A stretch of DNA of 33,751 bases from a virus, in the IMG/VR virus record IMGVR_UViG_3300020578_000249, positions 1 through 33,751 of that record; one strand, written 5' to 3'. The notes beneath the pieces are model-generated. The model was not told the origin of the DNA. It saw only the letters and a program-made list of their open reading frames with translations, and searched no databases. Position 1 is the first letter of the stretch. Each line of letters opens with the position of its first letter. The translations under genes were made by a program, and so were the position numbers. Below, in pieces: positions 2,697-27,266 of this stretch.

Positions 2697-3550
2697 GTTG
2701 TGATGTTGTGATGATCCATTTTTTGACGGGTGTTGACACCGAGGACTGGCGACCGTTGTGATAACCCATTTTTTGACGTGTGTTGACACCAAGCAGCTTC
2801 AACCAGGAGGTTCTTGCGAAGTTGTGATAACCCATTTTTTGACGGGTGTTGACACCATCCCACGCGATCGACCTAACCGCTATTAGTTGTGATAACCCAT
2901 TTTTTGACGGGTGTTGACACCTAGATCGTGATGGAACCGCTCTTGCTTTTAGTTGTGATCACCCATTTTTTGACGGGTGTTGACACCTTTACCCAAATGT
3001 TGTGATCACCCATTTTTTTTGACGAGTGTTGACACCTTGAGCTGGCGCTCAGAGAGATACTGTTGTGATAACCCATTTTTTGACGGGTGTTGACACCTTT
3101 AGCTGGCGTTCCGACAGGTGTTCATGGTTGTGATAACCCATTTTTTGACGGGTGTTGACACCCAATACAGATTTGGAGCACCTCCAAGTAGGTTGTGATC
3201 ACCCATTTTTTGACGGGTGTTGACACCACCAGCTAGGCATCATGCAGGTACACGAGGTTGTGATCACCCATTTTTTGACGGGTGTTGACACCTCAACCCT
3301 GAGACTCGGCAACTCAGTTGTGATCACCCATTTTTTGACGGGTGTTGACACCTTGATCGTGATGGCTGCCGCACACTCATCGGTTGTGATCACCCATTTT
3401 TTGACGGGTGTTGACACCCTAGACTTCTAGATCTTTCCCAGCTCATCTGTTGTGATCACCCATTTTTTGACGGGTGTTGACACCACAGCTCTTTGAGCCC
3501 TGGGGGTGGGAGAGGTTGTGATCACCCATTTTTTGACGGGTGTTGACACC
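2665..3550 (-). CRISPR. CRISPR array: 14 repeats of about 36 nt plus one decayed repeat, 13 spacers
   Basis: On the plus strand each repeat begins GTTGTGATCACCC and ends GACGGGTGTTGACACC. Repeats start at 2705, 2755, 2821, 2886, 2952, 2999, 3062, 3127, 3192, 3257, 3317, 3383, 3449 and 3515. A decayed copy lies at 2665-2696, followed by a stray GTTGTGAT. Most repeats at the low end read GATAACCC; those at the high end are uniform GATCACCC. Decay at the low end marks the trailer, so the leader should be near 3550 and transcription leftward, on the same strand as cas12. CACCC and GGGTG can pair around an A/T-rich loop. Spacers measure 14, 30, 29, 30, 11, 25, 29, 29, 29, 24, 30, 30 and 30 nt in plus-strand order, so four are short. 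The repeat at 2999 has two extra T. Confidence 0.97.
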
Positions 3551-3708: not shown

Positions 3709-5802
3709 TCACCCCGCAGAAAGTTTTTTGTGCAAATCGGTTATGATCTGCACGAACTTCCCGAATGGGATGACCCCTCCAAAGACAGGTCCCTGCCGAC
3801 CCCCATCATCACAAGCTGGGTCGGTGCCGCAGTAGAGGTGTTTGAAATCTCTCATTGCAGCATCCCTGTTGATTTTTGTACCGTCGATATTCGGATGAGA
3901 AAGATTGAGAGCAGCATAGAGGTCTCTGTCAACGGTCACACCGTTCCTGACAATTTCCCTCACGTCTGCCCCCAACTTAGTATACGCACGTCGTGGGTTC
4001 TTCTCAAAAATATCTGTGCCAGTTGCTCTGTATTTTTTCTGATCAACCAGATACAGATGCCCCTCTGAAACCTTCATGGGGTTTTTTCTCAGGTCAATCG
4101 ATCTCCTTCCGCATCTGTTTGAAGCTACGAACATTGCGTTTCTGAATGCCCCAGGAGAACCGCGCTCCACGCCGCGTCCGTGGTCTTTTGCCCAGCCCGC
4201 AACATCTCCGCCCTCCGAAAACAGACGGCCGCCGATGCAGCCGATGAAGGTTGCAACCCTGTTGCGGAGGTTTTTTCTGGCCTCTACGATCTGACCCTCT
4301 GTCCTCTTCATCCTGCGATGCACATCTCTCACTCTCGCGGTCCAAAACTTACGCTGCAGGCGTTTGCCCTCCCCCCACGCACCACCTTCGCGGATGATCC
4401 CCAACTCTGTTGCTCGGAGACGACACCCCTCGCTGAACCTCTTTTGTTGGCGCAGCAGCCGCCTCTCGCGTCCTCTGCACTCTTCAACGGTTGATAATTT
4501 TCCGGCGAACACAGTGAGACCAGTCGAATCATCAACAATGTTTACCGAGACGGTTTCAGTACCCAGATCAACACCAACGGTGCATCCAGGGAGAAGATTT
4601 TCCCTGTCACGCAACTTTCTGCATGAGTAGAGGATGTGCACATACCACAGCCCGCGATGAAAAACTGGCATGACCGCACGCACCCTGCTCACAACCTCCC
4701 TGTCCCTGATGATGTGTACCAGATCGTCGCGCTGCCTTCCTTTGTCCTGCCGTGGATCCCTCAGGGAACACCTGATCCTGTGAACATTCTCAGGCCGGTC
4801 TCCGATGATCCTTCTGCTGGCACCACTCCTCCGCACAAGGAGGTAGAATGTTCCATCACTCATCAAAACAAGCCTCCCACCGTTCAGAGAGGTTGTCCTG
4901 TCGCCAGTGCCGCACCGATGTCTGCGTCCTCCCCGACGCAGGCGGAAACGGTTTCCGTGACCGCTGTTCCGGATGCCGTTTGAGAAATTTTTACCCACCT
5001 CCTTTGCAATTTCGCACACATTTGTTGGGGAGAGGTGAGCTCCGACCCACCCGTCGAGGATGTCACCACCCGCCCCATCATCATGCAGGCCCCACACGTG
5101 GTCTTCGACCTCACACCAACGTTTACCACGCAGTAGCGCCCTGGTGAAATAGTGTGTATTCCCCTTGTACGAGCCCCACCTCTTGCGAAATTCTTCGAAT
5201 GCGGCGGCGAGCGGCGTGTCCGCGCCCGCTCCACCCCCCACCTTCCCACCGAAGAGTGAATCCCCCAGCCGACGGCACCCCTCGTCAATTTTCGTCCGCT
5301 CCCTCTCAAGTTTTTCCACCCCCTCCACATCCCCCGCCAGCCGTGCGGTGCGTATCAACCCAGAAACCTCTCTCCTGCGCCTCACCATCCCCTTCCACCT
5401 GTCAACCTCAACCTTTCTTGCGGCCCCCGACACACCCGATGCCCCTGCGTACAGGACATTCTGCCGCTCCTGGGACCCATTTGCAAGGTTGCAGTGGTGG
5501 TTCAACTGGTCAACCGCAGTTTTGTAGACATGCGCGCATGCGAGCTCCCTGTTTTGCAGACATTTCACCGCAGCTGCATCCGGATGGATCGGCAGAATCA
5601 TCGATTTGTGAAGTGGTTCTGAAGAATTCTTATTTTTTGCCCGGCGTTCCTTTGTCGTCTCCCCAGCGCCCGGCGGGGCACCCTGGTCTGAGTTCCAAAC
5701 CTCAACCACACCACCATCACGGGGTGACTCCACACCAGCTAACCCCGCAATCAGACGTCCGAGCCTGCGGTCATCCATGATTTTCTTTTTATGTCTACCC
5801 AT
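3709..5802 (-). CDS. compact phage Cas12-like (type V) RNA-guided nuclease
   Basis: The protein has 697 residues from the ATG at 5802; the frame is open to 5895, and another ATG lies at 5778. The C-terminal half is a split RuvC nuclease. RuvC-I is GCTVGVDLGTE with catalytic D412. RuvC-II is likely LFSEGGD with E530. RuvC-III is VDRDLYAALNL with D627. An arginine-rich helical bridge (about 440-515) separates I from II. The stretch between II and III lacks the CxxC pairs of TnpB and most Cas12 zinc ribbons. Residues 75-310 are helical and charged, as expected of a recognition lobe. The length matches hypercompact phage effectors such as Cas12j (CasPhi) and Casλ, but I cannot assign a subtype. 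A CRISPR array lies 158 bases downstream on the same strand. No Shine-Dalgarno site precedes the ATG. A TATAGT box lies close upstream, so a leaderless or short-leader transcript is possible. Confidence 0.9.
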   Translation of the reverse strand: MGRHKKKIMDDRRLGRLIAGLAGVESPRDGGVVEVWNSDQGAPPGAGETTKERRAKNKNSSEPLHKSMILPIHPDAAAVKCLQNRELACAHVYKTAVDQLNHHCNLANGSQERQNVLYAGASGVSGAARKVEVDRWKGMVRRRREVSGLIRTARLAGDVEGVEKLERERTKIDEGCRRLGDSLFGGKVGGGAGADTPLAAAFEEFRKRWGSYKGNTHYFTRALLRGKRWCEVEDHVWGLHDDGAGGDILDGWVGAHLSPTNVCEIAKEVGKNFSNGIRNSGHGNRFRLRRGGRRHRCGTGDRTTSLNGGRLVLMSDGTFYLLVRRSGASRRIIGDRPENVHRIRCSLRDPRQDKGRQRDDLVHIIRDREVVSRVRAVMPVFHRGLWYVHILYSCRKLRDRENLLPGCTVGVDLGTETVSVNIVDDSTGLTVFAGKLSTVEECRGRERRLLRQQKRFSEGCRLRATELGIIREGGAWGEGKRLQRKFWTARVRDVHRRMKRTEGQIVEARKNLRNRVATFIGCIGGRLFSEGGDVAGWAKDHGRGVERGSPGAFRNAMFVASNRCGRRSIDLRKNPMKVSEGHLYLVDQKKYRATGTDIFEKNPRRAYTKLGADVREIVRNGVTVDRDLYAALNLSHPNIDGTKINRDAAMRDFKHLYCGTDPACDDGGRQGPVFGGVIPFGKFVQIITDLHKKLSAG

Positions 5803-5913
5803 GCCCAAACTATACGGGCGGCGACCCCCCAAAATGACCCCATCCGACCCCGACGCCAGATTCCCCCCGTAACAGTCCCCACCGGATCCCACCACCTGTC
5901 GAGAAAAGAGAAC

Positions 5914-13011: not shown

Positions 13012-13085
13012 CATATGGTTGCTTCAGACCAATCATACGCGTCAAGAAACAGCCCATTGGAAATTTCCGATGGGCTGTTGTTGAG

Positions 13086-13426
13086 TGGAGGCGGGGGGAT
13101 TCGAACCCCCGTGCTGTTCAGTCCATCGCGCCAGACACCACGTGCGTCTCCCGTGATCATTCTGCCTCAGGTCACCTCACGGGTGGGTGATCCATCGGGA
13201 CTTCCTGTCGTCTCAGCACCGAAGACCCGGAAGACGGTCTGTCAGTGAGCCTCCCCTGTTTGGGGGTGTGCCAGGCAGGGGAATCCTGACTCACCCGTGG
13301 CAGCCTAGGCTGCTTGTAGCATCAACGATTCGTTGGCGCTTGTGTTTGGTCGGCTTTTGTAAGGTTGCCCACCAGCCCTTGCACGCGTCTGGAACGTGGA
13401 ACCGCCAGTCGATTCCCTTCGCCCCC
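13086..13426 (-). ncRNA. ssrA: tmRNA (transfer-messenger RNA)
   Basis: A 341-base RNA. The 5' end GGGGGCGAAGGGAATCGAC and the 3' end with T arm CGGGG-GTTCGAATC-CCCCG form the tRNA-like domain, and GGGGGCG pairs fully with CGCCTCC, including one G-U pair. An internal frame begins GCC AAC GAA and ends GCA GCC TAG, giving the tag ANESLMLQAA. Further hairpins between tag and 3' end fit the pseudoknot region, for example CTGCCTGG and CCCCAAACAGGGG. tmRNA rescues stalled ribosomes and marks broken products for proteolysis. Host tmRNAs are universal in bacteria; a copy beside phage tRNA genes suggests the element supplies its own. Confidence 0.92.
13305..13337 (-). other. tmRNA tag reading frame (ANESLMLQAA)
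   Basis: Ten codons from the resume codon GCC to TAG. The tag begins AN and ends AA, as bacterial proteolysis tags do, but its LMLQAA end differs from the common ALAA. The AA end still fits recognition by ClpXP-type proteases. Confidence 0.8.
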
Positions 13427-18835: not shown

Positions 18836-19702
18836 ATGGCGCTTGTCAAGAAACCAAGGGTACCCAAGGACGAATGGCTGCAGGTATCGGTTGTCGAACT
18901 TCATACGGTAGCACTGTGTACTGACGGCACCGTCAGGGCGTGGGGACGCAACTATGAGGGTCAATGCAACATCCCCACAGACCTTGGCCCCTGCACCGCC
19001 ATCTCGGGGGGCGGCTACCACACCATCGCACTCCGCACCGACGGCACCGTCATGGCGTGGGGATGGAACATCTACGGCCAGTGCAACGTCCCCACAGACC
19101 TTGGCCCCTGCACCGCCATCTCGGGGGGCGGCTACCACACCATCGCGCTGCGCACCGACGGCACCGTCAGGGCGTGGGGGCGCAACTACAACGGCCAGCT
19201 TAACATCCCCACGGACCTCGGCCCCTGCACTGCCATCGATGCTGGCAGCCACCACACCATCGCGCTGGGCACCGACGGCATCGTGAGGACATGGGGATAC
19301 AACTCCCAGGGCCAATGCAACATCCCCGCCGACCTCGGTCCCTGCACTGCGGTCGCGGCGGGCTTCTATCACGCCCTAGCGCTGCGCACTGATGGCACTG
19401 TTAGGGCGTGGGGATGGAACAAATACGGCCAGTGCAACATCCCCACGGACCTCGGCCCCTGCACTGCGGTTGCAGCGTGCGGCCACCACGCCATCGCACT
19501 ACGAACTGATGGCACCGTCAGAGCATGGGGAAACTTACGGGAGCCTTTCGGCTTTGCAATCCCATGGAAACTATCCGATAATGGATGGTACGATTTCATC
19601 GCAAATTATGACTCAGATGTAAAGGTCACAGACGTTGTACCAGCCAGAATCAGGCGCACAGAGAAATACAGAAATATCAGGCTGATGTCGACGATGTCAT
19701 GA
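18836..19702 (+). CDS. RCC1-repeat beta-propeller protein, copy 1
   Basis: The protein has 288 residues. Six repeats of about 42 residues carry the RCC1 signature: LRTDGTVRAWG, then N..GQCN[IV]PTDLGPC and A..G..HTIAL. RCC1 repeats form a propeller used in eukaryotes for chromatin and Ran binding and in bacteria mostly for cell-surface or effector roles. No signal peptide is seen, so it acts in the host cytoplasm or in the virion. The last 60 residues (IPWKLSDNGWYDFIANYDSD...) are a separate conserved tail. The copy is close in DNA sequence to the two following genes, showing recent tandem duplication. Confidence 0.92.
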   Translation: MALVKKPRVPKDEWLQVSVVELHTVALCTDGTVRAWGRNYEGQCNIPTDLGPCTAISGGGYHTIALRTDGTVMAWGWNIYGQCNVPTDLGPCTAISGGGYHTIALRTDGTVRAWGRNYNGQLNIPTDLGPCTAIDAGSHHTIALGTDGIVRTWGYNSQGQCNIPADLGPCTAVAAGFYHALALRTDGTVRAWGWNKYGQCNIPTDLGPCTAVAACGHHAIALRTDGTVRAWGNLREPFGFAIPWKLSDNGWYDFIANYDSDVKVTDVVPARIRRTEKYRNIRLMSTMS

Positions 19703-19763
19703 CGAAGCACCAGGCACGCAAGCGCACCCATCCTACCCTACTACCCTGCTGGCACGTGGGTTC

Positions 19764-19797
19764 GACACCGGCGCGCACGACGGAACGGAGCACCGAT
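19764..19797 (+). promoter_or_regulatory. start-associated element (core 19767-19777)
   Basis: GACACCGGCGCGCACGACGG plus GGAG. The spacing of core to ATG (19798) is 20 bases. Nearly identical to the copies at 18803 and 20654. Confidence 0.8.
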
Positions 19798-20655
19798 ATG
19801 GCGCTTGTCAAGAAACCAAGGGTACCCAAGGACGAATGGCTGCAGGTATCGGTTGTCGAACTCCATACGGTAGCACTGTGCACTGACGGTACCGTCAGAG
19901 CATGGGGAATCAACTCCTCCGGTCAGTGCGACGTTCCCACTGATCTGGGCCCGTGCGTTGCGGTCGCGGCGGGCGGCCACCACACCATCGCACTACGAAC
20001 TGATGGCACCGTCAGGGCGTGGGGATCCAACGACTACGGTCAGTGCAACGTCCCCACGGACCTCGGCCCCTGTACTGCGGTTGCATCGGGCGGCTACCAC
20101 ACTGTCGCGCTGCGCACTGACGGCATCGTGAGGACATGGGGATACAACTATGACGGACAGTGCAACATCACCAAATACCTCGAACCTTGCACCGCGATCG
20201 CTGGGGGACTCGGACACACCGTCGCACTGCTTGAGGACGGCACCGTCAGAGCGTGGGGAGACAACTACTCCGGCCAGTGCAACATCCCCACGGACCTCGG
20301 CCCATGCTCCGCTATCGCAGCGGGCAACACCCACACCATCGCACTACGAACTGATGGCACCGTCAGAGCATGGGGAAACAACCACTACGGGCAGTGCAAC
20401 GTCCCCGCCGACCTCGGTCCCTGCACTGCGGTCGCTGGGGGCGCCTATTACACCATCGCACTGCTTGAGGACGGCACCGTCAGGGCGTGGGAAAACTTAG
20501 ATTTCGCCTTTGTAATCCCATGGGGACTATCCGATAATGGGTGGTACGATTTCATTGCAAAACATGATTCAAATGTAAGGGTCACAAATGTTGTACCAGC
20601 CAGAATCAGGCGCACAGAGAAATACAGAAACATCAGGCTGATGTCGCAGTTCTGA
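19798..20655 (+). CDS. RCC1-repeat beta-propeller protein, copy 2
   Basis: The protein has 285 residues from the ATG at 19798, set by the element 20 bases upstream; the frame is open further upstream but without a ribosome site. The first 27 codons are almost identical to copy 1. Six blades follow; the last has AWE in place of AWG. Residues just before the conserved histidine and around the WGxNxxG turn differ from blade to blade (GGHH, GGYH, GLGH, GNTH, GAYY) while the framework is constant. The tail is shared with copies 1 and 3. Probable role: binding of a variable ligand. Confidence 0.9.
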   Translation: MALVKKPRVPKDEWLQVSVVELHTVALCTDGTVRAWGINSSGQCDVPTDLGPCVAVAAGGHHTIALRTDGTVRAWGSNDYGQCNVPTDLGPCTAVASGGYHTVALRTDGIVRTWGYNYDGQCNITKYLEPCTAIAGGLGHTVALLEDGTVRAWGDNYSGQCNIPTDLGPCSAIAAGNTHTIALRTDGTVRAWGNNHYGQCNVPADLGPCTAVAGGAYYTIALLEDGTVRAWENLDFAFVIPWGLSDNGWYDFIAKHDSNVRVTNVVPARIRRTEKYRNIRLMSQF

Positions 20656-20687
20656 TACCGGCGCGCACGACGGAGCGGAGCACCGAT
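20654..20687 (+). promoter_or_regulatory. start-associated element (core 20657-20667)
   Basis: GATACCGGCGCGCACGACGG plus GGAG, directly at the stop codon of copy 2. The spacing of core to ATG (20688) is 20 bases. Confidence 0.8.
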
Positions 20688-21578
20688 ATGGCGCTTATCA
20701 ATTCGTTTGAACATCGAACCAAGAAGCCAAGGGCACACAAGGACGAATGGCTGCAGGTATCGGTTAGTAGCGACCTCCATACGGTAGCGCTGCGCACTGA
20801 CGGCACCGTCAGGGCGTGGGGAATCAACGACTACGGGCAGTGCAACGTCCCCATGGACCTCGGCACCTGCACTGCGGTCGCGGCGGGCTGGCGCCACACC
20901 GTCGCACTGCTTGAGGACGGCACCGTCAGGGCGTGGGGAAACAACGAGCACGGCCAGTGCAACATTCCCACGAAACTCGGTCCTTGCACTGCGGTCGCGG
21001 GGGGTTGCTGGCACACCATCGCGCTACGAACTGACGGCATCGTCAGAGTGTGGGGAATCAACGACTCCGGCCAGTGCAGGAAAACCACGGACCTCGGCCC
21101 GTGCACCGCCATCGCGGGGGGCGGCTATCACAACATCGCAATTCGAACTGATGGCACTGTTAGGGCGTGGGGATACAACTACTCCGGCCAGTGCAATGTC
21201 CCCACGAACCTCGGACCTTGCACTGCGGTCGCTGGGGGCATTTACCACAGCATCGCGCTGCGCACTGACGGCACCGTCAGGGCGTGGGGATACAACCACT
21301 ACGGGCAGTGCAACGTCCCCGCCGACCTCGGCCCCTGCACCGCCATCGCGGCGGGTGGCGACCGCACCATCGTGCTGCTTGAGGACGGCACCGTCAGAGC
21401 ATGGGGAAACTTACGGGAGCCTTTCGGCTTTGCAATCCCATGGGAATTATCCGATAATGGGTGGTACGATTTCATCGCAAACTATGACTCAGATGTAAAG
21501 GTCACAGACGTTGTACCATCTAGAATCAGGCGCACAGAGAAATACAGAAATATCAGGCTGATGTCGACGATGTCATGA
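20688..21578 (+). CDS. RCC1-repeat beta-propeller protein, copy 3
   Basis: The protein has 296 residues. The N-terminus (MALINSFEHRTKKPRAHKDE) has a short insert compared with copies 1 and 2. Six blades follow, with variable residue pairs such as GWRH, GCWH, GIYH and GGDR, and the same C-terminal tail ending RRTEKYRNIRLMSTMS as copy 1. DNA identity among the copies is high within framework codons and low in the variable ones. Blades have probably been shuffled between copies by recombination. Confidence 0.92.
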   Translation: MALINSFEHRTKKPRAHKDEWLQVSVSSDLHTVALRTDGTVRAWGINDYGQCNVPMDLGTCTAVAAGWRHTVALLEDGTVRAWGNNEHGQCNIPTKLGPCTAVAGGCWHTIALRTDGIVRVWGINDSGQCRKTTDLGPCTAIAGGGYHNIAIRTDGTVRAWGYNYSGQCNVPTNLGPCTAVAGGIYHSIALRTDGTVRAWGYNHYGQCNVPADLGPCTAIAAGGDRTIVLLEDGTVRAWGNLREPFGFAIPWELSDNGWYDFIANYDSDVKVTDVVPSRIRRTEKYRNIRLMSTMS

Positions 21579-22312: not shown

Positions 22313-23380
22313 ATGAGTAAATCGAAATTCATTCATTCGTCTAGCGGGATCAACCTGATAAATACGCTCGCAGAATGTAGGGATCTCACGCTGCTGTCCT
22401 CTGCTCAAGAGAAGGTTGCCTCTCTGGACGATATTATCAGAGATCGAGAAGAGATGTTTGGAGCGAATGGGCTTTTCCAGATAGTTAATCCTCCTCGCAT
22501 GATTCATCCGCCTGCGGGCTTTGTTGACCCTTACCGATGGTGGGTCTTGGCGACCGAGACTGTCGTTCGAGACCGGGGAACCGATGCAGGGTTCGTCTCG
22601 CGTGGCGTGATACAAGCCTTGAGAGAACACGCAAGTCCGACCTACTTCATCAGCACCGAACTGCTCGAAGCGATGGAGCGCACCGACTTTGGAAACGCTC
22701 CGATGCGTGACATTGAATGGGCGCACCCTGGGATGCTCTTCATGCTGCCAGAAAGAGCTAATTCGTACTACGAGGTTGCCATGCCCGACATAAGCACCGG
22801 GCGTACACACTCAGTGCGAGTACGCGCTGTTGGGATCGGATTCGCTAAAGTTTGGTCAGCAACAGAGAACAGTAATGGTATCGCCGTGTTCATCGTTGAC
22901 AGCGTTGGGGCTTGCTCTTGGGCGCTAATTCCATTCATGGACACCTGGCAAGAAGCAGTGGACTACATCGGGAAGAATGACATGATGTCCGATGAGCAAC
23001 GCGCGCGGTATCCGTGGCAGTCCAAATTGGCTGATCTCGAAAAGGGAGCTCTTTTCACGAACTGCTCACTCATCTTCAAGGTTATGTGCCTTTGGAACTC
23101 TGAGCGATCAGACGGGTCGTCGGAGGTGGTTAGGGACGGCGGTCGCCTGATTCGGGCGGGAAATCCCAAGCGAATCGATCGCAAGAAACGCGATCTCTGG
23201 GGTGGGATTCTGCTTCGGCTAAATGAACCTGTTTCAAGGATTATCAGTGATGACAAGTCTGACGAACGCGGTGTTCGCCGCCATTGGCGGCGGGGTCATT
23301 TCCGCCGACAGCCGCACGGGGCTGGTCGAACTCTGCGGAAGTCGATTTGGATCAGGCCACATATGGCAGGTTCTCTATAG
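22313..23380 (+). CDS. AcrVA2-like protein (anti-Cas12a family)
   Basis: The protein has 355 residues. The C-terminus reads GVRRHWRRGHFRRQPHGAGR followed by TLRKSIWIRP. It matches in order the conserved end of AcrVA2 and its many phage and plasmid relatives (HxRRGHW, then GxGR, then W.xP). The middle has ALFTNCSLIFKVMCLWNSER, in the place of the AcrVA2 helix before its C-terminal part, and the length is close to the family's (about 320). AcrVA2 is known to lower Cas12a levels by acting on cas12a mRNA during translation. That this protein does so is inferred. The ATG at 22313 has only a weak ribosome site. A second frame (23250-23456) overlaps the end and is probably a shadow. Confidence 0.6.
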   Translation: MSKSKFIHSSSGINLINTLAECRDLTLLSSAQEKVASLDDIIRDREEMFGANGLFQIVNPPRMIHPPAGFVDPYRWWVLATETVVRDRGTDAGFVSRGVIQALREHASPTYFISTELLEAMERTDFGNAPMRDIEWAHPGMLFMLPERANSYYEVAMPDISTGRTHSVRVRAVGIGFAKVWSATENSNGIAVFIVDSVGACSWALIPFMDTWQEAVDYIGKNDMMSDEQRARYPWQSKLADLEKGALFTNCSLIFKVMCLWNSERSDGSSEVVRDGGRLIRAGNPKRIDRKKRDLWGGILLRLNEPVSRIISDDKSDERGVRRHWRRGHFRRQPHGAGRTLRKSIWIRPHMAGSL

Positions 23381-23657: not shown

Positions 23658-24185
23658 ATGCAAGGAGATTGTTTCATGTATTATCACGAGAACAACACTG
23701 ACTACATCACGCTTCGTACCAAGCAACCCATTACTGCGGTCTACGGAGGTAAAAGCCTCTGGGCAGACTGCGGTCCTCGCAAGACGGAGGTCCGCAAGAT
23801 CAGACTGTTCATTGGGGGTGTTGACCTCTCGATTCGCAAGAAGTCGTGGTCTACGGCGACATTGGGTCAGCAACTTTACGTGGGGATTCATGCGTTCATC
23901 CCCAAGCGGATGTGGGACACATCCAAGTACGGACTCATCTATACAGACGATCGTTGGGAGCGGGAGTTCAGGGCTGGACTGAAGTTGTCGTTCCCCGTAC
24001 TGAAGGCGATTCAGAGCGTCGGTTACACCGAGCAAGGGCAGCAAGGAGATGACTATGTAAGCCTGAGCGGGTCCATCTACGGCATGAAGAAAATGCGCGA
24101 TTTTGCAGATGCTATCGAGGCTGGCGACATCCTTGACGACATGTTGGCAGAGGCAGATGAAGAGGAAGAAAGAGGCTTCAAGTGA
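23658..24185 (+). CDS. hypothetical protein
   Basis: The protein has 175 residues from the ATG at 23658, after GAGGA in a start-associated element; an in-frame ATG at 23676 after AAGGAG is equally possible (169 residues). The middle is strand-rich (LFIGGVDLSIRKKSWSTATL, then YVGIHAFIPKRMW). The acidic end has AEADEEEERGF. No family recognised. It overlaps the next gene by GTGA, so they are translated together. Confidence 0.75.
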   Translation: MQGDCFMYYHENNTDYITLRTKQPITAVYGGKSLWADCGPRKTEVRKIRLFIGGVDLSIRKKSWSTATLGQQLYVGIHAFIPKRMWDTSKYGLIYTDDRWEREFRAGLKLSFPVLKAIQSVGYTEQGQQGDDYVSLSGSIYGMKKMRDFADAIEAGDILDDMLAEADEEEERGFK

Positions 24186-24733
24186 ACAGAGATGACAGCA
24201 TTTTTGACGACGAGACTCACGTCTTTCGTCCTTCCACCAACAGGAATGCCCCTCCCATCGTATCCGTGGACAAGAAGATGGAACTGTCGCGCTTCACCAG
24301 CGGCGACTACATGTTCTACCCCCTGCCAGCAGATGAGGAGTGGGTTCGCCGTGAGGGATGGGACATGTCCCATTGTCTTGCCATCTGCCAGGACGACTAC
24401 TGCCGCCGCATGAGGAAAGGCGAGATTGAGGTGTGGTCCATGACCCACATCCCGACCAACACCCCCGTTGTTGACATCGAGGTGGCGATCACCCGTTCTT
24501 CCTATGGCGGACCCGTCTTCAGACCAACGGTGAGCCAGATCCGTGGAGTTGCCAACCAATGTCCACCTGACGACGATCTTCTGCCCCACATCGTATCATT
24601 TCTCAACAGCGAAGTAGGGTCGGCGTGGCATGTGGGTGATCACGGGGTCAAGAACTTCGACAGACGCCTAGATGGTGACCTTGTGATGCGACGCATTGCG
24701 CAGCTCGAAGAGCGCGAACTGCGTGCGGACTAA
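24182..24733 (+). CDS. PcfJ-like domain protein
   Basis: The protein has 183 residues from a GTG at 24182 overlapping the previous stop. The segment EGWDMSHCLAICQDDYCRRM, then GEIEVWSMTHIPTNTPVVDIE, then VSQIRGVANQCPP and a final HIVSFLN follows the pattern of PcfJ-like proteins (mxHCvg.y......g...i.S......p..T.e.....I.Q..G..N..p). These occur on plasmids and phages; their function is poorly known. The family cysteine-histidine pair (HC) is kept. Confidence 0.65.
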   Translation: MNRDDSIFDDETHVFRPSTNRNAPPIVSVDKKMELSRFTSGDYMFYPLPADEEWVRREGWDMSHCLAICQDDYCRRMRKGEIEVWSMTHIPTNTPVVDIEVAITRSSYGGPVFRPTVSQIRGVANQCPPDDDLLPHIVSFLNSEVGSAWHVGDHGVKNFDRRLDGDLVMRRIAQLEERELRAD

Positions 24734-24768
24734 TCGGTGGACCAGCACGTGTTGAACCTGCCCAGTGT

Positions 24769-24801
24769 GACACCGGCGCGCAGGATTAGAAGAACATAAG
24801 C
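24769..24801 (+). promoter_or_regulatory. start-associated element (core 24772-24782)
   Basis: GACACCGGCGCGCAGGATTA, then GAAGAACATAAGC. A GTG stands 19 bases after the core (24802), which points to a short leader peptide before the ATPase gene. Confidence 0.7.
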
Positions 24802-24849
24802 GTGTCCCGCGTGGGGCGCAACAACAGAAACAAAGAGAGGAAACCATGA
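24802..24849 (+). CDS. possible 15-residue leader peptide
   Basis: The frame GTG TCC CGC ... CCA TGA gives a basic peptide ending NRNKERKP. Its start is at the standard 19-base distance from a start-associated core, and its TGA overlaps the ATG of the ATPase gene as ATGA. It may couple or adjust ATPase translation. Confidence 0.4.
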   Translation: MSRVGRNNRNKERKP

Positions 24850-25946
24850 ACAGCAAAGAGATCAAGGATACGGGCGCAAAGACCAAGGACCTTGTGTCCA
24901 CCATCAAGCGCAATCGCAAGACAGGAATCCCGACCTTCGTGTTCGGTCCCCCTGGTGTCGGCAAGAGTGAGATGGTTCATCAGGCTGCGGAAGGCGATGC
25001 TGTTATCGACGTCCGCTTGTCCATGCTGGACCCCGTTGACCTGCGCGGTCTACCCACCACCATCCCCGATGGGAATGGAGGTACGAAGGTGGCGTGGGCG
25101 TTGCCCGACTTCATCCCCGCAGATGGCAAGGGGATCATCTTCTTCGACGAACTCAACACAGCACCAATCGCGGTTCAGAACGCCGCCCTACAGATCATTC
25201 TCGACCGCAAGTGCGGTCCTCACAAACTTGGGGATGGGTGGTACATCGTAGCCTGCGGCAACAAGTCCGCACACAGGGCGCATGTGAATCCCCTGTCTGC
25301 TCCGCTCCGCAACCGTTTCTCCATCGTGGATTATGTCCCTTCCGTTGAGGCGTGGACGGGTTGGGCGATTCAGAACGGAATCCACGACCACATCATTGCG
25401 TTCCTCAACTTCAGTCCTGACCACCTCTGTTCGTCCCCCAACGACGAACACAGCAACTTTGCTTCGCCACGCTCCTGGGCGCGTATCTCGCGGTTCATGC
25501 AGATTTTTCCAGAGGAGACTGTCGGGAGGGACATCGAGGCAACAACTTCTCTTATTGGTCGTGGCTCGGCTGTGGCTTTCTCGTCCTTCTGCGAGGAGAT
25601 CGAGGATATGCCAGACATCGACGCGCTGATCGAAGGGAAGCAGCAGTTCTCCCACACGGGTAAGCGCATCAGCATCTCCTATGCTGTCGCAACTACCATC
25701 GCTGGTCGTATGCTCCGCAGCGACTCCAAGAAGTTGACGAAGGGGTATGTTGAGCGTTGTACGGAGATCGCAGCCGAACTTCCTGCGGAGATCGCCTGTC
25801 TGTTCTTCGTCATGTGTCTAGGTGGCAGCAATGAGTCTGCAAAGACTCTCCGTCATAAAATCCTCGTTTCCGATGCAGGGCAAGCCTGGGCGAAGAAGCA
25901 TCGTCCACTTCTTGAGAAATACAACGTCAGCAACCTCGCTGACTGA
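24846..25946 (+). CDS. MoxR-type AAA+ ATPase
   Basis: The protein has 366 residues. Walker A GPPGVGKS is at 34-41 and Walker B IIFFDELN at about 97-104; a sensor-like ACGNKS and the arginine-finger region APLRNRFSI follow. The motif VRLSMLDPVDLRGLP between the two Walker boxes is typical of MoxR ATPases, which act as chaperones inserting metals or remodelling complexes, together with a partner carrying a VWA domain. That partner is encoded 100 bases downstream. Phages of several kinds carry such pairs, with unknown role. GAGAGGAAACC lies directly before the ATG. Confidence 0.92.
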   Translation: MNSKEIKDTGAKTKDLVSTIKRNRKTGIPTFVFGPPGVGKSEMVHQAAEGDAVIDVRLSMLDPVDLRGLPTTIPDGNGGTKVAWALPDFIPADGKGIIFFDELNTAPIAVQNAALQIILDRKCGPHKLGDGWYIVACGNKSAHRAHVNPLSAPLRNRFSIVDYVPSVEAWTGWAIQNGIHDHIIAFLNFSPDHLCSSPNDEHSNFASPRSWARISRFMQIFPEETVGRDIEATTSLIGRGSAVAFSSFCEEIEDMPDIDALIEGKQQFSHTGKRISISYAVATTIAGRMLRSDSKKLTKGYVERCTEIAAELPAEIACLFFVMCLGGSNESAKTLRHKILVSDAGQAWAKKHRPLLEKYNVSNLAD

Positions 25947-26012
25947 TGGTTCTCTCTTTGCAGACCACCCGTACCACCCTGAGCATTTTGGGGTGGCGGG
26001 TCGGTTTGACGT

Positions 26013-26045
26013 AATACCGGCGCGCAGAATCTTGAGGACATAGAC
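26013..26045 (+). promoter_or_regulatory. start-associated element (core 26016-26026)
   Basis: AATACCGGCGCGCAGAATCT, then TGAGGACATAGAC. The spacing of core to ATG (26046) is 19 bases; almost identical to the copy at 23627. Confidence 0.8.
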
Positions 26046-27266
26046 ATGAGCAATGAAGAAACAACTCACAGTATCTCGCAGCATGATGTAAATGCAGCAC
26101 GAGAGCGCATGAGCGGGATCACGTTCGCCATGTACCGCAACTTCCCGTTTTTCGCACTCCTAGCGGAGTCCTGCAACATCCGTATGTCGGATGATTGCCC
26201 GACAGCCTGCGTGGACAAGCATGGGAACATCACGTTCGGACGGGAGTTCATGTCCAAGTTGAACGATGGAGAGTTGATCTTCATTCTTGCACATGAGGTT
26301 TTCCATGTGGCGTTTGCCCACTTCGACCGCCGTGGTTCGCGTGATCCATTCCTATGGAATGTGGCTGGCGACTATGCCATCAATCTGCTCGTCAGGGATG
26401 GGATGTCCACGGTTATCGGCAGCGAAAGGCGTGTTCCTAAAGGCTGCATCCCGAAGGACATCTTGTTGGATGAGAAGTACGCGGATATGTCCACAGAGCA
26501 GATTTATGAGGACATCTTCAAGAATGTCAAGAAGGTCAAAATCAGGTGTTCGATGTCGGGTGACATGAATGATGACAGCGACGAAGATGATGGTCAGTCT
26601 GTCTCCATCAAGGACGCACGGGCCAAGATTCCAGAGACAAAAGAGGGTTGGCAGCAGGCTATCGCTACGGCGATGACTAGGGCAAAGCAATGCGGCAAGT
26701 TGCCTGAAAGCCTTGAACGTGCTGTCGGAGACTTCCTAAAGAGCAAGGTCGATTGGTCGGAGCAACTTCGCCAGATGCTTCGTCATGGGGTGTCGCGCAT
26801 CAACAAGGACTTCTACACCTTCCTCCCCTGTAACCGCCGCTTCGTCCATCAGGGGCTATACATCCCCTCTCTTGTCGGCTTTGAGGCCCCCAAGATCGCA
26901 TTTGCCATCGACACTTCGGGTTCGATGGGTCAGGATGCTGTGTTGCAGGCTCATGCCGAGATCGACTCCATCCGCAAGCAGTTCGGATGCCCTGTCTACA
27001 TCATGTCCTGCGATGCCGATGTCCACAGCGGAGAGTGGGTCGGTCCCTATTCCGACCTACCCATGCCCGTGGGAGGAGGAGGTACGGATTTTCGCCCCGT
27101 GTTCAATCATCTGGTTGGCAACCGTATCCCCGTTGATATTGTGGTGTACCTGACGGATGGATACGGAGAGTTCGGAGATGATCCAGGGATCGAAACCATT
27201 TGGGTGATGACCACCCATGAATCCCCTCCGTGGGGCAGTCATGTTCAGATCGGAGTAGATGCTTGA
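26046..27266 (+). CDS. DUF2201-like protein: HEXXH metallopeptidase-like domain plus VWA domain
   Basis: The protein has 406 residues. The N-terminal domain has HEVFHVAFAH (HEVFH at 83-87), a zinc-binding motif. The C-terminal VWA-like domain has a MIDAS motif DTSGSMG (from 289), then GGGGTDFRP, in which the threonine and aspartate complete the metal site, and VVYLTDGYG. An acidic linker lies near 173-184. This is the usual partner of MoxR ATPases; together they form a two-component ATPase/VWA machine. The protease motif may be active or structural. It has its own start-associated element and overlaps the next small gene. Confidence 0.9.
   Translation: MSNEETTHSISQHDVNAARERMSGITFAMYRNFPFFALLAESCNIRMSDDCPTACVDKHGNITFGREFMSKLNDGELIFILAHEVFHVAFAHFDRRGSRDPFLWNVAGDYAINLLVRDGMSTVIGSERRVPKGCIPKDILLDEKYADMSTEQIYEDIFKNVKKVKIRCSMSGDMNDDSDEDDGQSVSIKDARAKIPETKEGWQQAIATAMTRAKQCGKLPESLERAVGDFLKSKVDWSEQLRQMLRHGVSRINKDFYTFLPCNRRFVHQGLYIPSLVGFEAPKIAFAIDTSGSMGQDAVLQAHAEIDSIRKQFGCPVYIMSCDADVHSGEWVGPYSDLPMPVGGGGTDFRPVFNHLVGNRIPVDIVVYLTDGYGEFGDDPGIETIWVMTTHESPPWGSHVQIGVDA

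Follow-up and report, generated by a model that had tools for sequence, protein, structure and literature searches.

The viral record IMGVR_UViG_3300020578_000249 of IMG/VR encodes, at positions 22313..23380 on the + strand, a 355-residue protein that is, by profile and predicted fold, a remote member of the superfamily containing the phage protein AcrVA2 and the plasmid protein FinQ, and that most likely works as AcrVA2 does. We put the probability of this reading at roughly one in two. The window analysed here is the entire record, 33,751 bases long and itself a fragment. AcrVA2 recognises Cas12a during its synthesis, by its N-terminus (LSKT), and sets off translation-dependent loss of the messenger RNA (mRNA; PMC13131331). 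A 2026 review describes it as the first prokaryotic factor whose reading of a nascent protein leads to destruction of the mRNA (PMC13131331), and according to a 2025 meeting report it can be turned against tagged Cas9 and Cas12f (PMC12908700). A first-pass annotation of the window had pointed to an AcrVA2-like C-terminal pattern in this gene, and had offered two interpretations: silencing of a host Cas12a while the phage's own Cas12 is spared, or a wider role in the control of specific mRNAs. The pattern is borne out by motif alignment, profile comparison and fold, and the second interpretation fits our results better than the first, with FinQ falling within the AcrVA2 clade and other members residing in type VI secretion system (T6SS) loci.

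Results

The AcrVA2-like gene and its family

Relatives 67-71% identical to the window protein occur in five viral contigs with coinciding start codons (MSKFI...), and the start of the window protein is supported by two of them (L035 and L037), which begin with the same MSK(S)KFI. The ratio of nonsynonymous to synonymous substitutions (dN/dS) between the window gene and these two is ~0.15, a sign of purifying selection, at a dS near saturation. Because the start is conserved and dN/dS is low among these relatives, we judge open reading frame (ORF) 22313-23380(+), on sequence evidence, to be a real protein-coding gene.

A search of viral contigs and bacterial genomes, seeded with the C-terminal tail motif, gathered a large family carried by phage contigs and by contigs of Massilia, Janthinobacterium, Paraburkholderia, Thiohalocapsa, Nostoc, Cyanobium, Flavobacterium and others. 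The motif HWRRGH is invariant in all 58 aligned sequences, an invariance that is partly built in since the motif lay within the search pattern. None of the 58 matches Pfam, and the family is absent from both Pfam and NCBIfam.

Three regions can be distinguished in the window protein, all on the + strand. An N-terminal extension (residues 1-73, 22313..22531) has no match in AcrVA2; its residues 1-30 are predicted to be disordered and helices are predicted at 38-58. The central region (residues 74-319, 22532..23269) combines an AcrVA2-like fold with low sequence conservation and is a putative nascent-peptide reader. The C-terminal motif region (residues 320-352, 23270..23368; HWRRGHFRRQPHGAGR...IWIRP) contains H324-H329, unchanged across the 58 relatives. 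Mean column identity within the family is 0.62 over residues 320-352 versus 0.28 over residues 74-317, and a constant effector joined to a changing reader would be expected to produce just such a contrast. The family is large and uncharacterised, and proteins other than Cas12 are probably among its targets.

Profile and fold similarity to AcrVA2

The first-pass annotation had proposed a profile comparison with AcrVA2, and in our comparison the similarity extends well beyond the arginine-rich end. Using hhalign, 85 family sequences were set against ten AcrVA2/FinQ-type sequences, giving a whole-profile match (Prob 99.0, E 3.3e-18) that spans residues ~102-355. With the tail removed on both sides, a match of 148 columns persisted (Prob 94.7, E 6.2e-8); in control comparisons, neither reversing the profile nor block-shuffling it (20 versions) gave an E value below 0.04. 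A narrower profile, limited to 16 sequences close to the window protein, matched AcrVA2/FinQ over residues 245-354 (E 2.7e-8). Furthermore, two bridging sequences, L143 and L088, match the window protein (phmmer E 8e-7 and 2e-8) and also members of the AcrVA2 clade, from a Leptospira phage (1e-9) and FinQ (2e-8), and L143 combines HWRRGH with the HxYW signature of AcrVA2.

The predicted structure leads in the same direction. An AlphaFold2 model built from an alignment of relatives only, with every AcrVA2-clade sequence left out, was confident (mean predicted local distance difference test score, pLDDT, 79.8; predicted template modelling score, pTM, 0.80). The only significant Foldseek matches of this model in the PDB were the AcrVA2 structures 7ci2 and 7ci1 (E 3.5e-5, prob 1.00). 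VIA structure comparison aligned model residues 74-354 with residues 2-316 of 7ci1 (Z 11.7, root-mean-square deviation 4.2, 209 residues), the next unrelated structure scoring Z 2.5. Matches in BFVD include proteins from phages RisingSun and JA13, both of which have AcrVA2-clade members in the comparison set. Judged from the model, the predicted fold is homologous along nearly all of AcrVA2, with residues 1-73 as an additional N-terminus. In the tail, the window motif RRHWRRGHFRRQPHGAGR...SIWIRP aligns with AcrVA2 KRPHIRRGHWHG.W.GTG...WQPAVFV, so that the H-x-R-x-x-H motif with its G and W is present (H324, R326, H329, G336 and W346, equivalent to AcrVA2-clade H325, R327, H330, G337 and W348).

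Single-sequence methods detect likeness to AcrVA2 in the C-terminal ~35 residues alone, as does single-sequence hhalign. Queries with the window protein returned zero matches in Pfam, NCBIfam and PADLOC, by tblastn against GenBank phages and plasmids, and in an exact-peptide search of viral contigs. PHROG 15934 matched residues 316-353 (E 2.3e-5), and the named AcrVA2 of Shewanella phage Y11 (OQ927986; PMC10846135) matched in the tail alone (BLASTP E 0.17). An AcrVA2 hidden Markov model (HMM; A1) searched against the window record failed to retrieve the window protein, a plain HMM of the HWRRGH family reached AcrVA2 in the PDB only at E 0.27, and a single-sequence AlphaFold2 model (pLDDT 32) was useless. 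A claim of kinship drawn from single-sequence evidence alone would be weak, and the single-sequence searches, which find nothing but the tail, are what speaks for a resemblance confined to an arginine-rich end that arose by chance or convergence. The tail-less profile match and the full-length fold match rule out that explanation for practical purposes, and we give it next to no credence.

Position relative to the AcrVA2/FinQ clade

Characterised AcrVA2 comes from Moraxella phages (PDB 7CI1, 7CI2), with PHROG 6160 holding a Shewanella phage member; Y11 AcrVA2 matches the 7ci1 crystal sequence at E 1.5e-72. When Y11 AcrVA2 was searched against plasmids by tblastn, 601 records were matched, mostly from Escherichia and Salmonella, and the top-scoring of these are annotated finQ (E ~1e-15, 95% of the query). 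By sequence, FinQ is a full-length AcrVA2 homologue within the AcrVA2 clade. In the account of PMC8744291, citing Ham and Skurray 1989, FinQ is a fertility inhibitor of IncI plasmids that causes Rho-independent termination of tra transcription at multiple sites. It resembles AcrVA2 in belonging to the same superfamily and in lowering the expression of specific operons at the RNA level, and differs in its target, the F plasmid tra operon, and in its reported mode of action, transcription termination (PMC8744291). In the literature searched, a set from which the AcrVA2 preprint was missing, no paper names both FinQ and AcrVA2; the link may already be known. FinQ homology to AcrVA2 was noted across L003 and H43-H78. 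On L003 (plasmid NZ_CP123589) the homologous frame runs from ~101, well ahead of the annotated finQ start (377), and the annotated protein looks truncated.

In a tree of 58 sequences, AcrVA2 and FinQ form one clade (support 100/99), which is one among several branches; the window protein lies outside it, in a phage-dominated group of 28 rows (95/92). Two residues of the clade, H332 (9/10) and W335 (10/10), are replaced in the window protein by R331 and P334. Because the BLASTP match has an E of 0.17, the protein branches outside the clade and these residues are replaced, we conclude from sequence comparison that it is not an AcrVA2 orthologue. What it shares with AcrVA2 is the fold over residues 74-354, the HxRRGH(W/F) motif, the tail G and W, general size and a phage location. 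It differs in having ~10% identity, the two substitutions, ~70 more N-terminal residues, and no support for Cas12a, the target of AcrVA2, as its own target. The published list of AcrVA2 peptide-pocket residues is based on docking (PMC10846135).

AcrVA2-related phage genes were also described by Al-Shayeb et al. 2020 (PMC7162821), a study of huge phages that also covers phage-borne CRISPR systems; its clusters are reported with AcrVA2. The TTC5-type autoregulation of tubulin (PMC10403363) differs in being eukaryotic and in using an unrelated protein.

The Cas12-like locus and the question of target

The window also carries, as a context element with no interaction implied, a 728-residue Cas12/TnpB-like nuclease at 3709..5895 (- strand). 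Its TnpB/Cas12u3 profile matches are weak, the TnpB/Cas12 matches lying below the curated cut-off, and RuvC-like motifs (GVDLGTET and DRDLYAALNL) were recognised by eye. Beside it, at 2755..3550, lies an array of clustered regularly interspaced short palindromic repeats (CRISPR) with 13 repeats of 36 nt (GTTGTGATcACCCATTTTTTGACGGGTGTTGACACC). A 13-repeat array adjoining a RuvC-type single-effector candidate, albeit one with weak profile matches, is what marks a Cas12-type system, and the first-pass description of an AcrVA2-like protein in an element with its own Cas12 agrees with this. Some spacers are partly alike (GATCGTGATGG near 2922 and 3354; AGCTGGCG near 3040 and 3100), a likeness that would fit targets of related sequence.

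The Cas12 locus recurs at ~100% identity in ten other contigs (L147-L156), each of which stops somewhere in the 4.1-7.1 kb stretch of the window. The longest, of 62,954 bases, continues outward into tail-spike and helicase genes and lacks the AcrVA2-like gene, of which no copy was found in the eight of these ten contigs that were searched, all being fragments. The clustering of their ends may mean that this region varies or is difficult to assemble, or that a join is chimeric. Because all ten contigs end by window position 7.1 kb, the physical link between the Cas12-like locus and the AcrVA2-like gene rests on one record.

One alternative is that the window protein lowers the mRNA of the phage's own Cas12-like nuclease once enough of it has been made. 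The presence of both genes in one record and the reported redirection of AcrVA2 to other nucleases, Cas12f included, would accommodate such autoregulation; against it stand the 16 kb between the genes and the lack of this nuclease in the available records of close relatives (L035-L042), whereas the fruitless search of the Cas12-locus contigs, being fragments, carries little weight either way. We regard it as improbable.

Only slightly better placed is a true anti-Cas12a protein that would read the Cas12a N-terminus, remove host cas12a mRNA and spare the phage's own nuclease, as the first-pass annotation had envisaged. The AcrVA2 fold is in its favour, as is a phage-borne Cas12-like system whose N-terminus is, by eye, unlike that of Cas12a. 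Its support fails elsewhere: the protein is a non-orthologue on a separate branch, conserved clade residues are replaced, and cas12a (TIGR04330) was found in 0 of 32 family-carrying bacterial genomes, a count of low power given that the same search found it in 1 of 274 Gammaproteobacteria, so that absence was likely anyway. A TnpB/Cas12-type match was present in four of 42 virus records carrying relatives and in none of the remaining 38. Taken with the T6SS neighbours described below, these two counts make a general anti-Cas12 role of the family unlikely.

Members from Massilia, Janthinobacterium, Rugamonas and Paraburkholderia (Oxalobacteraceae, Burkholderiaceae) are housed in T6SS loci, adjoining VgrG, TssF or TssK (L058-L063, L067, L069, L070, L080-L090). 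These neighbours lend weight to another explanation, in which the AcrVA2 fold serves a different biochemical role and silencing of the AcrVA2 type is a specialisation derived within a single clade; the protein might, for example, bind ribosomes or RNA, be associated with a T6SS or act as a nuclease toxin. That the AcrVA2/FinQ clade is merely one of several branches, and that H332 and W335 are typical of it, fits this explanation too. It sits less well with HxRRGH being the most conserved element and common to both branches, and with FinQ, which is biologically unlike AcrVA2, likewise acting at the RNA level. We consider it a realistic possibility, less probable than AcrVA2-like action.

Other features of the window

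No neighbouring gene is common to the flanks of close relatives, and conserved neighbours yielded no clue to the target. Downstream of the AcrVA2-like gene (24182-27266) lie PcfJ-like, MoxR ATPase and DUF2201 genes, and these gene classes recur beside some distant relatives in other phages (L128-L139; L108-L116); the copies there are not close homologues of the window's genes and were rejected as a target clue. A phage transfer-messenger RNA (tmRNA; tag ANESLMLQAA) and four transfer RNAs are encoded at 13083-13426, and this tmRNA is a possible partner of a factor whose action may leave ribosomes stranded on broken mRNA. Three consecutive ORFs at 18836-21578 share similar RCC1-type repeat sequence, which Pfam confirms for the first and third. 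Positions 1-1500, spanning a DUF6065 gene and an endonuclease V-like gene, have a G+C content of 34% versus ~53% elsewhere and are probably a recent acquisition.

Discussion

We propose that the window protein acts in the manner of AcrVA2, with both peptide recognition and co-translational mRNA decay inferred from published AcrVA2 work. While a particular protein is still emerging from the ribosome, the variable central domain would bind a short segment of it. The C-terminal HWRRGH module would then set off loss of the mRNA under translation, perhaps by cutting it, through contact with the ribosome or with RNA, or with the help of a host nuclease that the module recruits. As the target, Cas12a is less likely than a protein of host defence or of a competitor.

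Several considerations weigh against this proposal. The mechanism is carried over across ~10% sequence identity, and the RNA-degrading step is unsettled for AcrVA2 itself (PMC13131331). The clade residues H332 and W335 are not retained, and the T6SS-linked members hint at possible superfamily roles that have nothing to do with mRNA decay.

More tentatively, the proteins of a broad superfamily found in bacteria and phages could silence mRNAs under the guidance of nascent chains, each pairing an exchangeable peptide reader with the invariant HxRRGH effector, and AcrVA2 and FinQ would be two of its specialised forms. The window protein would then be aimed at a non-Cas12 target, and the 'termination' of tra transcription attributed to FinQ would be co-translational mRNA decay. 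We hold this wider scheme to be possible, and less probable than AcrVA2-like action of the window protein itself. It would give a new and testable reading of FinQ, which a 1989 description presents as an inhibitor of the transcription of F transfer genes. Residues H324, R326, R327 and H329 are singled out as prime candidates for function. More generally, the combination of constant tail and variable body across a large superfamily suggests general, reprogrammable gene silencing in bacteria.
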